Shown here: piece after piece, positions 8,239 to 25,103 of the stretch | How positions within the stretch are numbered: position 1 is the stretch's first letter | Layout: every line of letters starts with the position of its first letter | Assembly: GCA_029982755.1 (NCBI GenBank) | Contig: JARRBR010000013.1 | Span: 1-44,566, forward strand | DNA length: 44,566 bases | Reading direction: 5' to 3' | Origin: Rhodocyclaceae bacterium | Lineage (GTDB): Bacteria > Pseudomonadota > Gammaproteobacteria > Burkholderiales > Rhodocyclaceae | The notes under the pieces: generated by a model | Database searches by the model: none | Told to the model about the DNA's origin: nothing | Seen by the model: the letters and a program-made list of their open reading frames with translations, nothing else | Position numbers and translations under genes: made by a program

Positions 8239-9984
8239 ATGCCGATCGTCTACCTTCAGCCCAGCGACCTGTCCGCCGTCCAGGCGGAGCGGGTGCTGGC
8301 GTTCCTGAACGCGGCGACGAGCGCCGAGCAGCTCGCGCGCGACATCGAGTTCCCGCGCGAGCCCGACATCGGCGTGCGCCTCGGCCAGCGCCTGCTCGAT
8401 GCGCGCGCGGCGCTCGGCGGCAGCTTCAGCGACATCCTGCAGGTGCGTGCGGTGCGGCTGATCGGCCCGGAGCGCTTCACCGAGATCTGCGTCGCCGCGC
8501 TCGGCCTGGACCCGACGCGCTGGGTCGAGCTGTTCTACGGTGGCGAGGCGCTCGCCACCCCGACCGAGAGCGGCCTGGTGCTGAGCCTGGCCCTGCATCC
8601 GCAGGACGCCTGGCTGGGCGAACCGCGCACCCTGCGCCTGCAGGTCGATGACCACGGCGGCACGCCGCGCGCCGGGGTCGCGGTCACGGTGCAGGCCAGC
8701 CTCGGCCGGCTGGTCTATCTGTACGGCTTCCACCGCATCGAGGGCCAGGCCGTCACCGTGCTCACCGGCAGCGACGGCAGCGCCGAACTCGAGCTGCTCA
8801 CGCCGCCGACGGAGCCGCTGACCGAGAACCAGCAGGCCGCGCTGGAGACCGCGCTCGCCGCACTCGACCCCCGGGCCGCCCATCCGCTCGCGCTCGAGGC
8901 CGGCCTGAAGGCGATGGCGGAGGCCTACCTGCGCGACCGCAGCTACAGCCTGCGCACCGCGATCGACCTCTACGTGCGCGACGCCCACGGCGCCGCGGTC
9001 GACACCATCAGCCGCGAGCGCTGGAAGCTGGCCTGGCCGGTGGACAGCGGCCTGATCCAGGCCGACGTGCTCGATGCCGGGGGGCGCGGCAGCAGCCTCG
9101 CGCGCGCGGTGCGGACCGCGACCTGGATCGACTGGGTCGAGCCGTGGACGAGCTTCCTGGCCGACGTGCTCGCGGGCGGCACGCCGCTCGAGCAGGAACT
9201 CGCCGCGCGCGCCACGAGCGGCGACGGCGCACTCCTCGACGGCCTGCTCAACCTCGCCCAGACCCGCCTCGCAGGGCACGCCGGCCGGGCCGCGGAGTGG
9301 ATCGGCAAGCGCCAGCTGGAAGCCGCGGTCGACCGCTTCATCGGCAGCGGGGTGGAGACCCTGCCGGCGCAAGCGCGCGACGCGGTGGTGTCCCAGCTCG
9401 GCGTGGCGGCGGCCGAGGTGGGTCCGCGCTCGCTCGGCAGCTACACCCTGGACACCGCGACCCGGGCGGACCTCGGCCAGCGCATCGACACCGTCGCCGA
9501 CCTGAACCTCGCCGAATTCGAGCACCTCGGCACCCTCGCGCGCGAGGTCGAGGCCCGCGCCGGCGCGGTGGACGCGCAGCTGCGCCAGGTGCAGGCGCTC
9601 GCGCTCGAAGTGCACCAGGACCGCCAGGCGATCGACACCCGCATCGACAGCTTCGACACCCGCTACCAGTCCTTCGACAGCCGGTACGCGTCCTTCGACA
9701 CGCGGTACTCCTCCTTCGACACGCGGTACTCCTCCTTCGACACGCGCTATGCCAGCTTCGACACCCGCTACGCCGACTTCGACAGCCGCTACACGCTGAT
9801 CGGCACCCAGCTCAACGAATTCGACGTGCGCTACGGCCAGTTCTCCACCGATCTTTCGCGCTTCAACACCGACCTCGCGAGCTTCGACCAGAACCGGCTG
9901 ACGCTGAACACCCGCATCGACAGTGTCGATACCAACCTGAAGAACGTGGTGAGCGCGAACAACCTGCGCCTGACGAGAGGCTGA
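8239..9984 (+). CDS. Unassigned tail-cluster protein with FDTRY heptad repeats
   Basis: 581 residues, family not recognised. Residues about 110-185 look like an Ig-like beta domain (SLALHPQDAWLGEPRTLRLQV). The middle is helical. Residues 472-518 are seven tandem seven-residue units of form FD[TS]RYxx, followed by degenerate units (FDVRYGQ, FSTDLSR, FNTDLAS) to about 560. The repeat register fits a long trimeric coiled coil or fibrous rod. The DNA repeats are 21 bp, and two adjacent units are identical, so copy number may vary. The gene lies 18 bp after its predecessor and 1 bp before the next. A tail-fibre shaft is my best inference. Confidence 0.75.
   Translation: MPIVYLQPSDLSAVQAERVLAFLNAATSAEQLARDIEFPREPDIGVRLGQRLLDARAALGGSFSDILQVRAVRLIGPERFTEICVAALGLDPTRWVELFYGGEALATPTESGLVLSLALHPQDAWLGEPRTLRLQVDDHGGTPRAGVAVTVQASLGRLVYLYGFHRIEGQAVTVLTGSDGSAELELLTPPTEPLTENQQAALETALAALDPRAAHPLALEAGLKAMAEAYLRDRSYSLRTAIDLYVRDAHGAAVDTISRERWKLAWPVDSGLIQADVLDAGGRGSSLARAVRTATWIDWVEPWTSFLADVLAGGTPLEQELAARATSGDGALLDGLLNLAQTRLAGHAGRAAEWIGKRQLEAAVDRFIGSGVETLPAQARDAVVSQLGVAAAEVGPRSLGSYTLDTATRADLGQRIDTVADLNLAEFEHLGTLAREVEARAGAVDAQLRQVQALALEVHQDRQAIDTRIDSFDTRYQSFDSRYASFDTRYSSFDTRYSSFDTRYASFDTRYADFDSRYTLIGTQLNEFDVRYGQFSTDLSRFNTDLASFDQNRLTLNTRIDSVDTNLKNVVSANNLRLTRG
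9652..9798 (+). repeat. Seven tandem 21-bp coding repeats
   Basis: Seven consecutive 21-bp units starting TTCGACA, each encoding FD[TS]RY plus two variable residues. Units three (9694-9714) and four (9715-9735) are identical at the DNA level; the others differ mainly at third positions and in the last two codons. This indicates old repeats plus one recent duplication. They are in frame and lie inside the tail-cluster gene. Confidence 0.95.
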
Positions 9985-21340: not shown

Positions 21341-22519
21341 ATGACGGGAGGACCTGGCGCCCTGCTTGCGGTGCTGGTGGTGGCGCTGACCTCGCTCGGC
21401 CCGCTGTCCACCGACTTCTACCTGCCCTCGCTGCCGGCGATCGGGCGTGCGCTGGCGACCGACAGCGCGGGCGTGCAGCTGACGCTGTCGGTCTACCTGC
21501 TCGGCTTCGGCTTCGGCCAGCTGCTGCTCGGCCCGCTATCCGACCGCTACGGGCGGCGCCCGGTGATGCTGTGGGGCATGGCGGTGTTCGTGCTGTCCTC
21601 GGCGGCCTGCGCGCTCGCCACCTCGATCGAGGCCCTGGTGGCGGCGCGCCTGGTGCAGGCCCTGGGCGCCTGTGCGGGGCCGGTGCTGGGGCGCGCGGTG
21701 GTGCGCGACGTGTATGGACCGCAGGACTCCGCGCGCATGCTGTCGCACGTGTCCACCGCCACCGCGCTCGCGCCGCTGCTGGCGCCGATCTTCGGCGGCT
21801 GGCTCACCGCCGGCTTCGGCTGGCGCGCAAGCTTCGTGGTGCTCACCGTCTACGGCACCGTGCTGATGCTGATGGTGTGGCGCCTGCTGCACGAGACCAA
21901 CGCCCATCCCGATGCGCGCGCCATGCACCCGGCGCGCATGCTCGCCAACTACCGCACCCTGCTCGCCGATCCCGGCTACCGCAGCGCACTGCTGATCGGC
22001 TGCGGCGCCTTCGCGGCGCTGTTCGCCTTCATCTCCGGCTCGCCCTTCGTCTATATCGAGCTGTTCGGCATGTCGCCGGTGCAGATGGGGCTCGCCTTCG
22101 GCGTCAACGTGACCGGCTTCATGCTCGGCACCGTGATGTCGGCAGGGCTGTCGAGGCGGCTCGGCCCCGCATGCCTGATCCGCATCGGCGTGCTCGCGGG
22201 CGGCGCCTGCGGCGCCGTGCTCGCCGCGCTGGCGCTCGCCGGCGTCATGCATCCGGCGGCGGTCATGGTCCCGGTGTGGGGCGTCACCGCCGCGATCGGC
22301 TTGATCCTGCCCAACGCCACCGCGCTCGGGCTGGCCGGCTACCCCAAGATGGCGGGCGCGGCGGCCTCGCTGATGGGTTTCGTGCAGATGGGCCTGGGCG
22401 CAGGCGCCGGCATGGTGGTCGGCCACGGCGTGCAGCACAGCACCCTGCCCCTGGCGCTGACCATGGCCAGCGCGATGCTGTTCAGCCTGCTGGTATGGCG
22501 CCTTGGGCCGCGGCGCTGA
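21341..22519 (+). CDS. Bcr/CflA-family multidrug efflux MFS transporter
   Basis: 392 residues with twelve membrane helices, the usual size for Bcr/CflA proton-drug antiporters of the inner membrane. The family start LSTDFYLPSLPAIGRAL is at about 22-38, with motif A GPLSDRYGRRPVML at 64-77. Motif C-like residues follow in helix 5 (APLLAPIFGGWL). The substrate is unknown. The start has AGGAT 9 bp upstream. The last 38 bp overlap the end of the convergent caspase-like gene. The 206-bp upstream gap contains TACAAT at 21176-21181, a possible -10 without a convincing -35. Confidence 0.93.
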   Translation: MTGGPGALLAVLVVALTSLGPLSTDFYLPSLPAIGRALATDSAGVQLTLSVYLLGFGFGQLLLGPLSDRYGRRPVMLWGMAVFVLSSAACALATSIEALVAARLVQALGACAGPVLGRAVVRDVYGPQDSARMLSHVSTATALAPLLAPIFGGWLTAGFGWRASFVVLTVYGTVLMLMVWRLLHETNAHPDARAMHPARMLANYRTLLADPGYRSALLIGCGAFAALFAFISGSPFVYIELFGMSPVQMGLAFGVNVTGFMLGTVMSAGLSRRLGPACLIRIGVLAGGACGAVLAALALAGVMHPAAVMVPVWGVTAAIGLILPNATALGLAGYPKMAGAAASLMGFVQMGLGAGAGMVVGHGVQHSTLPLALTMASAMLFSLLVWRLGPRR

Positions 22520-23195
22520 AACCCTGCCCTGGGGCGCGCACGCGTGTGCGGCATCCTGCAAAGAGCACTAGATTCATGTCGCGCGCGAGACATGCCGCAC
22601 GCAAGGCGCGCACCGGCACTGCATGCTTCTCCAGCAGCGCGCCTGCGTAGCCCTCGGCAAAGGGATAGTCGGCCGGAAGCAGATAGGTTTCGCCAGCGCA
22701 CTCGACACCATGTCCGGTCGAATAGATCACCGCGTCCGCGCACGCACGCGATCGGGCCGCAAAGGCGTGCAGCGCGCCGAGCAGGGACGCGCGCTCCGGG
22801 GCGATGCCGGTTGTCACGGCGAACCCGTTCGCGGCCATGCAGGCCGAAATCCGGCGCTCGTCCCACGCCGCACCAAAAAGCAGCCAGCCACCCGCCTCCG
22901 GATAGTCCGAAACGACCAACACCAGCGCCGCGCGCTCGCCTGACGACGCGTCGGCAGCCGGAGGCCATCGCCACGGCTCGTCGACCGGGAGACCGACCCA
23001 TTCGGGCACCTGCAGGCCCGCGCTATTGGCTTGCGTGCGTGCGCGCAAGGCCTCGGCGAACGTGCCGAGACCGAGCGGCTCGCCGGCGGCGAGCTCGATC
23101 AGCGCGGTGGCGAAGGGGTTGCCACCCTTCGCATCGCGATCGAGCGTTTCGCCGCCCGCGTATGTGGCGAAAATGACCGCAGCGGGAACGCTCAT
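22482..23195 (-). CDS. Caspase-like protein with permuted p10-p20 order
   Basis: 237-residue caspase-fold (peptidase C14-like) protein. Residues 1-78 resemble the normal C-terminal part of bacterial caspase-like enzymes (VIFATYAGGETLD, GGNPFATALIELA, LQVPEWVGLP). Residues about 88-218 resemble the normal N-terminal p20 part: ALVLVVSDYPE, then YSTGHGVECAGETYLLPADY with candidate catalytic His162, then NLVLFAGCRTR with candidate Cys215. Nothing p10-like follows the Cys. The order is therefore p10-p20, as in algal type III metacaspases. The acidic residue often two before the Cys is Ala here. It starts 39 bp after the SGNH-metacaspase gene, same strand. Activity is inferred only. Confidence 0.8.
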   Translation of the reverse strand: MSVPAAVIFATYAGGETLDRDAKGGNPFATALIELAAGEPLGLGTFAEALRARTQANSAGLQVPEWVGLPVDEPWRWPPAADASSGERAALVLVVSDYPEAGGWLLFGAAWDERRISACMAANGFAVTTGIAPERASLLGALHAFAARSRACADAVIYSTGHGVECAGETYLLPADYPFAEGYAGALLEKHAVPVRALRAACLARDMNLVLFAGCRTRVRAPGQGFSAAAQGAIPAG

Positions 23196-23217
23196 CCCCC
23201 CACCCCCTACCCCTCCC
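23196..23217 (-). promoter_or_regulatory. G-quadruplex-type tract abutting a start codon
   Basis: On the minus strand four G runs of 3, 4, 5 and 6 bases, separated by 1, 2 and 1 bases, end directly at the ATG of the permuted caspase gene. The tract contains GGAGGGG-like ribosome-binding sequence, so folding in the mRNA could mask translation initiation. Seen in sequence; the effect is inference. Confidence 0.5.
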
Positions 23218-23234
23218 GAAGCATCGCCCGGGCC

Positions 23235-25103
23235 TCAGATGCTGAACGGCATCTCGGCGGCCAGCACCTCCGGACTGCGCCCGATCAGGGTCAGGCGGGG
23301 GGTCTGGCTGGGCGGCATGTTGGCGACGATGCGCTTGACCAGCGTCGCCCAGTCGCCGTCGTAGCGCCCCTCGTCCCACACGCGCAGCAGCTCCTGGGTG
23401 AAGCGGCCGTTGCCCACGCCGTCCTGCGACTCCTGGTTGTCCTGGCAGCCGGCGACCAGCAGCACCGGGCAGCGCAGCGGCATGTCGAGCTCGCGGGTGA
23501 GCACGCGCTCGTCGGGGCCGCGATGCTGGCGGCCGAGGGCGGTGTAGAAGTCGCGATGGGTGCGGAAGGTCTTCATCGCCAGTGACAGCGGCAGCAGGCG
23601 GGTGCGCACGGCCGGCGCACCATCGGCCGCCACCGGCTGGGCGGTGCGCGCAGCGCGCGACACCGTGCCGCTGTGGCAGCTGTCCGAGATCATGACGATG
23701 CGCACGTCGTCGGCGAACTTCGACCACAGCTCGTAGAGCTCGTCGTCGATCAGCATGCCGTCGTACAGGCACAGGGTCTCGTCGGCGCCGTCGTCCTCGT
23801 CGGCGTTGAAGTCCGGCACCTGGCTGCCGTGGCCGGCGTAGGTGAGCATGAACACGTCGCCCGCCTTGAGCCTGGCCGCCGCGTCGGCGAGCGCCTTCTT
23901 GACCGCGTCGCGGGTGGCCGCCTCGTCGAGCAGCACGGTGCGCTTCTCGAAGCCGCGCTCGGCGGCGATGCGCTCCATGTCCTCGGCGTCGAAATGGCAG
24001 CCGAAGAGCTCGGCATCGCCGCCGTAGTGCGCGGCGTCGATCTTGTTGAGGCCGATGTGCACCGACCAGCCGCGGCGGGCCGGCGCCGCGGCCTTCGCGG
24101 CTGCCTTCGCGGCAGGCTTCTTGCCGGTGCCGCGCGAGCGCGGCGCCGCGGTGCGCCCGGCCACCGCCTGGATGGCCTTCTCGAAGCGCTCGGCGACCCG
24201 TCCGTAGCCGGGGTTCTTCGGATGCAGCTCGTCGTGCCAGACCGCCAGCGTGTTGCCCACCGCGCCGCGCGCATCGACGTGGACCGCGCGCGGGCCGAAG
24301 CGCGCCACGAGCTGGCGCAGGCGTTCGTTGAAGCGGTCGATCATGTGCGCGGCGATGCCGCGCTGCACCGCGCCGTCCTTGATGCCGCGCGAGAGCATCG
24401 GCTTGCCCAGCCACTTGCCGGCGTTGGGGATCACGTAGTCGTAGCCGTGGCAGATCGTCACCACGCCGGGCAGGGCCTCGACGTCGCGCAGCACGCGCTC
24501 GTACATCGCCAGCGCATGGTCGAGCAGCTGCTCGAAGCTCGGCAGCACGTGCGCCGCCGGCGACAGCGCGGGGTCGAAGTCGCGCAGGTGGGCGCGCAGG
24601 TTGCCGCCGCCGAGGGCATCGTTGCCGCCGGCCGAGAGCAGGAAGATCGAGGCCTTCGCCTCGCCGATCGCGTCGACGTACTCGCGGTCCTTGAGCATGT
24701 TCTCCAGCGTGTCGCCGGCCGCATCCAGGCTGCGCACCGCGAAGCCCTTCGTGTACAGGTGGTCGATCGTGTCCTCGAGCTTGATCGGGTACTGGAACCA
24801 GGAGTCGCCCTCGGACACCAGCACCGGGCCCTTGTAGCCATCGGCGATCATGCGGTCGAAGCGGATGCGGCGGCGCATGCGCGCGATGCCGTTGGCGAAG
24901 TTCATCGCCGCCTCGCTGCGCGCCCGCGCCTCGGCGGGGTCGGCCGGGAGCTCCACGGTGTCGGGGTTGAGCTGCAGCCTGGGGTGGAACAGCCCGGAGT
25001 GCTCGTCGTCGGTGACGAAGTAGTCGGCCAGTTCGCTCTCGGGGACGGAGAGGTCGGCGAGCTTGCGGTTGAGTTCGGCGGGGGTGATGCGCGGAGCGGG
25101 CAT
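23235..25103 (-). CDS. SGNH hydrolase-metacaspase fusion protein
   Basis: 622 residues, two enzyme domains. Residues about 90-315 are an SGNH/GDSL-like hydrolase: SEGDSWF with Ser101, GGND at 159-162, and a DELHP block with Asp291 and His294. An Ala/Lys-rich linker (about 321-343) leads to a metacaspase-like domain with TYAGHGSQ (His425), acidic NADEDDGADE (433-442, possibly calcium-binding) and SDSCHSG (Cys476). Both catalytic sets look complete. There is no signal peptide or membrane helix, so it is probably cytoplasmic. The start has AGGAG 6 bp upstream. It sits between a histidine kinase gene and a second caspase-like gene on the same strand. A suicide or defence role is inference. Confidence 0.9.
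   Translation of the reverse strand: MPAPRITPAELNRKLADLSVPESELADYFVTDDEHSGLFHPRLQLNPDTVELPADPAEARARSEAAMNFANGIARMRRRIRFDRMIADGYKGPVLVSEGDSWFQYPIKLEDTIDHLYTKGFAVRSLDAAGDTLENMLKDREYVDAIGEAKASIFLLSAGGNDALGGGNLRAHLRDFDPALSPAAHVLPSFEQLLDHALAMYERVLRDVEALPGVVTICHGYDYVIPNAGKWLGKPMLSRGIKDGAVQRGIAAHMIDRFNERLRQLVARFGPRAVHVDARGAVGNTLAVWHDELHPKNPGYGRVAERFEKAIQAVAGRTAAPRSRGTGKKPAAKAAAKAAAPARRGWSVHIGLNKIDAAHYGGDAELFGCHFDAEDMERIAAERGFEKRTVLLDEAATRDAVKKALADAAARLKAGDVFMLTYAGHGSQVPDFNADEDDGADETLCLYDGMLIDDELYELWSKFADDVRIVMISDSCHSGTVSRAARTAQPVAADGAPAVRTRLLPLSLAMKTFRTHRDFYTALGRQHRGPDERVLTRELDMPLRCPVLLVAGCQDNQESQDGVGNGRFTQELLRVWDEGRYDGDWATLVKRIVANMPPSQTPRLTLIGRSPEVLAAEMPFSI

Follow-up and report, generated by a model that had tools for sequence, protein, structure and literature searches.

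A caspase-like protein of a Rhodocyclaceae bacterium with its p10-like part ahead of its p20-like part, a probable natural circular permutation

The window analysed here is a stretch of 44,566 nucleotides from a Rhodocyclaceae bacterium (contig JARRBR010000013.1). It carries the gene of a small caspase-like protein, P0001, in which sequence profiles and a structure model place the p10-like part first and the p20-like part with the His162-Cys215 dyad second. We regard it as reasonably probable that P0001 is a natural circularly permuted caspase-fold protein (family C14) which, judged by analogy with an engineered relative, would be mature as made. The original prediction, made from the letters of the window, had proposed such a permutation, and the open reading frame, His162 and Cys215 lie where it had put them. 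Its three suggested checks (structure prediction, profile comparison of swapped and native order, homologues of like order) spoke for it, and neither of the outcomes it had named as refuting was seen. Together with three homologues P0001 forms a family of four members. Its features are the following:

22482 to 23195, minus strand: P0001, predicted circularly permuted caspase-like protein of 237 amino acids plus stop, ATG start (profiles and model)
23001 to 23177, minus strand: p10-like part, residues 7-65, N-terminal (profile match in reversed order; strand-helix-helix-strand in the model)
22545 to 22943, minus strand: p20-like part, residues 85-217, stopping just past the catalytic Cys (Pfam and profile)
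22710 to 22712, minus strand: codon of His162 (GHG motif), invariant in 4 of 4 members
22551 to 22553, minus strand: codon of Cys215 (AGCR motif), invariant in 4 of 4 members, with the Asp at Cys-2 replaced by Ala or Gly
22485 to 22550, minus strand: C-terminal tail, 22 residues past the Cys, shorter in the other three members

The Pfam family Peptidase_C14 (PF00656) covers only residues 88-177 of P0001 (E-value 2.2e-6, 27.9 bits at a curated cut-off of 21.4); the members P0004, P0005 and P0006 pass this cut-off as well. The N-terminal piece, VIFATYAGGETLDRDAKGGNPFATALIEL, resembles the end of canonical bacterial caspases, e.g. LIAYATAPGRVAADGEGRNGLYTSELL from our canonical set. This set comprised 51 caspase regions from the fetched loci, of which L032 and L033 were dropped, such that 49 entered the full-length, p20 and p10 profiles. 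Its regions were chosen by the pattern D[AS]C[RH] with at least 95 residues behind it, so that the Asp at Cys-2 and the C-terminal part are built in. The full-length profile matched P0001 in reversed order: profile positions 157-214 fell on residues 7-65 and positions 3-132 on residues 85-217, in agreement with the claim that the N-terminus reads as the end of a caspase. When the halves were rejoined in canonical order, a single match over positions 3-214 with 77.8 bits was obtained. With the halves swapped, the score of the whole sequence rose from 68.5 to 78.1 bits (+9.6) for P0001 and slightly, from 81.2 to 84.7 bits (+3.5), for P0005. The p10-only profile scored 13.4 bits on the N-terminal piece of P0001, 15.4 bits on that of P0005 and 21.2 bits on that of P0004, compared with 6.2, 3.9 and 5.0 bits, respectively, for the best of 500 shuffles each. 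A search of the PDB sequences with the family profile gave matches at E < 0.1 that all lay inside positions 78-180, the best being MALT1 (E 4e-4).

Nothing p10-like was expected behind the p20-like part, and this held for P0001 and its three homologues. A six-frame scan of 7-10 kb around each of the four members (open stretches of at least 25 amino acids, E up to 0.5) matched the p10 profile nowhere outside the members, and the p20 profile only in the members plus the SGNH-caspase genes of genome G1476 and of the window. Remnants of a lost p10 or p20 were thus seen near none of the four members.

The structure model agrees with this order. A confident model of P0001 fits a circularly permuted caspase across residues 1-219, the p10-like part forming a strand (residues 6-9), two helices and a strand (residues 65-67), with the strand placement taken from the fold match. 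Engineered permuted caspase-2 (PDB 9c2y, 8vp4) was matched as a single chain over both halves, well above non-permuted chains and at about 14% identity in the structure alignment. The alignment behind the confident model included ten short p10 fragments that MAFFT had placed N-terminally and that could favour the permuted fold. A two-row model free of these fragments matched the permuted caspase over residues 1-221, at a low-confidence pLDDT (predicted local distance difference test) of 53.9. In a viral fold library, a Tupanvirus ORFan protein was the single match with E < 0.001.

All three homologues have the same domain order at 38-68% identity to P0001. The closest, from genome G1476 of the same genus (L065:1465-2163), is 68% identical. 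The Lamprocystis purpurea member (L031:4016-4729) shares 55% identity over residues 1-217 and stops two residues past its GCR motif, and the member of G689, a genome in the order of Lamprocystis (L042:1486-2154), is 38% identical and ends four residues past this motif. A match covering the N-terminus was found in 2 of 29 genus genomes (E up to 1e-12, all candidates scored), 1 of 297 family genomes (1e-3), 1 of 250 order genomes (1e-9), one each of 369 class genomes and 398 phylum genomes (both 1e-12), as well as in 2 of 210 genomes in the order (1e-12) and 1 of 243 in the class (1e-14) of Lamprocystis. These counts include the genome of the query, the sets overlap, most are samples, and mostly a part of the first-look candidates was scored, such that further members may exist; the family sample, for instance, missed G1476. 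A phylum match from position 30 in G1426, apparently with internal stops, proved to be a canonical caspase gene. All four members belong to bacterial genomes, apparently of one class, as the same contig match turned up in both class searches.

In trees of 52 sequences, which exclude the G1476 member, the other three members fell into one group on long branches in 100% of the bootstrap trees, be it for p20, p10 or both joined. Between the window and G1476 genes the ratio of nonsynonymous to synonymous substitution rates (dN/dS) was about 0.16 (dN 0.25, dS 1.52), and for the first 75 aligned codons dN was 0.26 and dS 1.15. A phage or plasmid origin was rejected: 50,697 phage records held no match to P0001 at E up to 0.01, two scans of viral contigs with family alignments found no relative, and among 72,556 plasmid records 8 had a match at E up to 0.001, confined to residues 79-218. 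On one Lamprocystis contig three caspase matches lie less than about 6 kb apart in all (L040/L041, G539:C172:24695-30399), a tandem arrangement of the kind that could give rise to a circular permutation.

His162 and Cys215 are invariant in all four members and lie inside well conserved stretches; Asp19, an acidic residue early in the p10-like part, is invariant as well. The position Cys-2 sets the family apart. Because the canonical set had been selected by a pattern containing Asp, a first count at this position was circular, and it was repeated without requiring Asp and with duplicates merged. Asp was then seen in all 53 non-permuted rows having Cys there (22 of 87 rows have no residue at that column), while all four permuted members carry Ala or Gly. 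In metacaspases this Asp is an S1 residue that contributes to the basic P1 pocket, a role taken from trypanosome metacaspase 2. Its loss predicts cleavage after a residue other than Arg or Lys, and the specificity of P0001 is likely changed. In canonical caspases the linker from the Cys to the first p10 strand spans 22-43 residues (median 24); the chain of P0001 ends there instead.

P0001 is flanked by the following features:

23235 to 25103, minus strand: P0002, SGNH/GDSL-like domain plus caspase domain in canonical order (Pfam), directly upstream of P0001
23196 to 23234, minus strand: intergenic gap of 39 bp between P0002 and P0001, G-rich immediately ahead of the ATG
21341 to 22519, plus strand: convergent transporter gene, which we take to be of the MFS type; it adjoins P0002 in G193, where the permuted gene is lacking

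That the neighbour is another caspase-fold enzyme was borne out: the caspase domain of P0002 matches PF00656 at E 7.6e-22 and carries a DSCHSG motif, and its SGNH-like domain scores 29.9 bits, just under the curated cut-off of 32.9. In G1476, too, a P0002 orthologue immediately precedes the permuted gene, and in 2 of 4 genomes a short operon of the permuted gene and an SGNH-caspase gene is probable. The description of P0001 as stand-alone suits the protein, but in those two genomes probably not the gene. The pair in G1476 is followed by an integrase and preceded, divergently, by a CHAT protein and an astacin/matrixin-like protease; with this phage-type integrase the region resembles an island (L067:1009-5032, 8582-9982). 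Of the 29 genus genomes, 9 carry P0002 and 2 the permuted gene. In G193 P0002 is 95% identical and window positions 22521-23233 have no counterpart, 71 bp standing in their place. Among the open reading frames listed beside the Lamprocystis and G689 members none is P0002-like. A small frame upstream of the latter (L042:859-1107) resembles, by eye, a ParD-type antitoxin, and upstream of the former lies a 403-residue protein (L031:1754-2965) that is trypsin-like by eye and had no Pfam match. PADLOC defence-system models gave no match for P0001 and a generic caspase model alone for P0002, on which a known defence system was rejected. Relatives of P0002 were also seen on Rhizobium, Sinorhizobium and Palleronia plasmids (H9-H19; 46-50% identity over more than 90% of the length), in the three regions viewed beside genes for peptidases of families C1 and C25, for chitosanase, for L,D-transpeptidase or for peptidoglycan-binding proteins.

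Animal caspases mature by cutting in the linker between p20 and p10. In P0001 the new chain ends would lie at this very linker, which is gone, while the old N- and C-terminal ends would be joined. Since the maturation cut falls in a linker that P0001 never has, the protein could fold straight to the active form. Beside the order, predicted fold, conservation and selection described above, folding into a mature-like enzyme that needs no linker cleavage is what analogy suggests: the chain would directly adopt a cut-like, active conformation as engineered permuted caspase-2 (cpCasp2) does. According to passages of the report on it, cpCasp2 is constitutively active as a single chain, its linker-side ends separating on activation while the other pair of ends stays close (PMC7760212). 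Control of P0001 might then be exerted by expression, by the partner encoded next door or by a ligand. Its role might perhaps be that of a protease effector or processing enzyme, paired with the SGNH-caspase in a two-gene unit that is patchily distributed and has probably moved horizontally.

Several observations weigh against a permuted enzyme that is mature as made. The gain upon swapping the halves, clear for P0001 and slight for P0005, was 0.0 for P0004 (87.5 bits in both orders), so that the swap improved the score in two of three members. Ordinary caspase chains in the PDB often comprise the large subunit alone, which limits the meaning of their lower Z scores. In the available passages, self-cleavage at the linker persists in most of the earlier permuted caspases (PMC7760212), and the algal type III metacaspase GtMC2 gains activity, in a calcium-dependent manner, when its N-terminal domain is removed (PMC5756287), so that an order with p10 first does not by itself imply constitutive activity. 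Of the 9 genus genomes holding P0002, 7 gave no match to the permuted gene, so the partner does not depend on it. Finally, the loss of the Asp at Cys-2 could reflect an inactive or non-peptidase descendant.

The last point leads to the alternative that survives best, albeit as an unlikely one: P0001 would be a catalytically dead or non-proteolytic permuted caspase fold, a decoy or regulator of the SGNH-caspase. The missing S1 Asp in all members would fit, as would the position of 2 of 4 genes behind an SGNH-caspase gene. His and Cys are invariant within well conserved stretches, however, and in the 9-10 kb scanned around each of the remaining two members no additional caspase was matched by the p20 profile. 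We hold it for clearly improbable that P0001 is a type III metacaspase of the eukaryotic kind, Ca2+-dependent and Arg/Lys-specific and acquired e.g. from an alga. The domain order is that described for type III, as the original prediction had noted, and Asp19 is invariant early in the p10-like part, type III enzymes being activated by Ca2+ through a p10 Asp. This parallel need not extend to membership: where the canonical rows with the Cys have Asp at Cys-2 (53 of 53), all four members carry Ala or Gly, all of them bacterial and apparently of one class, with type III compared by description only. An artefact of fusion, frameshift or assembly that put the end of one caspase gene in front of the beginning of a second one seems very remote. 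Circular permutations are thought to originate from tandem copies, and the three Lamprocystis matches would suit such a junction, but the idea is already refuted because the homologues of 38-68% identity share the order, and the dN/dS, the single group in the trees and the absence of flanking remnants argue against it. A p20-only orthocaspase with an N-terminus unrelated to p10 is just as hard to believe, since despite a modest p10 score and an N-terminal part outside the Pfam match none of the 500 shuffles reached the real score in any of the three members tested, and the structural match spans residues 1-219 (1-221 in the two-row model).

Beyond a natural permuted C14 protein, a bolder picture can be offered tentatively, and we think it rather doubtful as a whole: a bacterial reverse caspase that evolved apparently once, judged by the members tested, that skips zymogen maturation because the maturation site became its two chain ends, that has moved its specificity off Arg/Lys, and that in some genomes belongs to a mobile two-protease effector unit with the SGNH-caspase.

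Canonical bacterial caspases (orthocaspases and bacterial type I metacaspases, PF00656) have homologous p20 and p10-like parts and share the His-Cys dyad with the permuted family, in which the order is opposite and the linker past the Cys and the Asp at Cys-2 are lacking. P0002 illustrates the difference: both proteins have a caspase domain and are adjacent in two genomes, but P0002 has the canonical order, the DSCHSG motif and an extra SGNH-like domain, and the two give only a weak BLAST match (E 0.009). Orthocaspases are defined by a p20 without p10, whereas P0001 carries its p10-like part N-terminally. The passages from the survey of Klemencic et al., covering 11,208 p20 sequences, report type III metacaspases in no prokaryote (PMC6426788). 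Its p10 search may miss this p10-like part: where p10 is sought only behind p20, or with a model of the metacaspase p10, such proteins may end up classed as orthocaspases without p10. A full-text literature search, covering titles, starts of abstracts and passages, found no description of a permuted bacterial caspase. Type III metacaspases of algae (Choi and Berges 2013; GtMC2) have the p10-like part N-terminal to p20 as in P0001 (PMC6426788, PMC5756287), but in these passages they are eukaryotic and described as Ca2+-dependent, while the bacterial permuted proteins lack the acidic residue at Cys-2. Engineered permuted or reverse caspases (cpCasp2; rev-caspase-3 and -6) were made by man from human caspases, whereas P0001 is natural and bacterial. 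As a permuted C14 protein of the caspase fold, P0001 is expected to function in the manner of the engineered reverse caspases; its likeness to type III metacaspases is one of domain order. In the literature passages natural permuted caspases are the algal type III metacaspases alone, and elsewhere permutation is a laboratory tool for constitutive activity. The bacterial family indicates that the permuted order can arise and persist outside algae, and at about 220 amino acids it offers a compact test case for whether caspase-fold proteases need linker cleavage.
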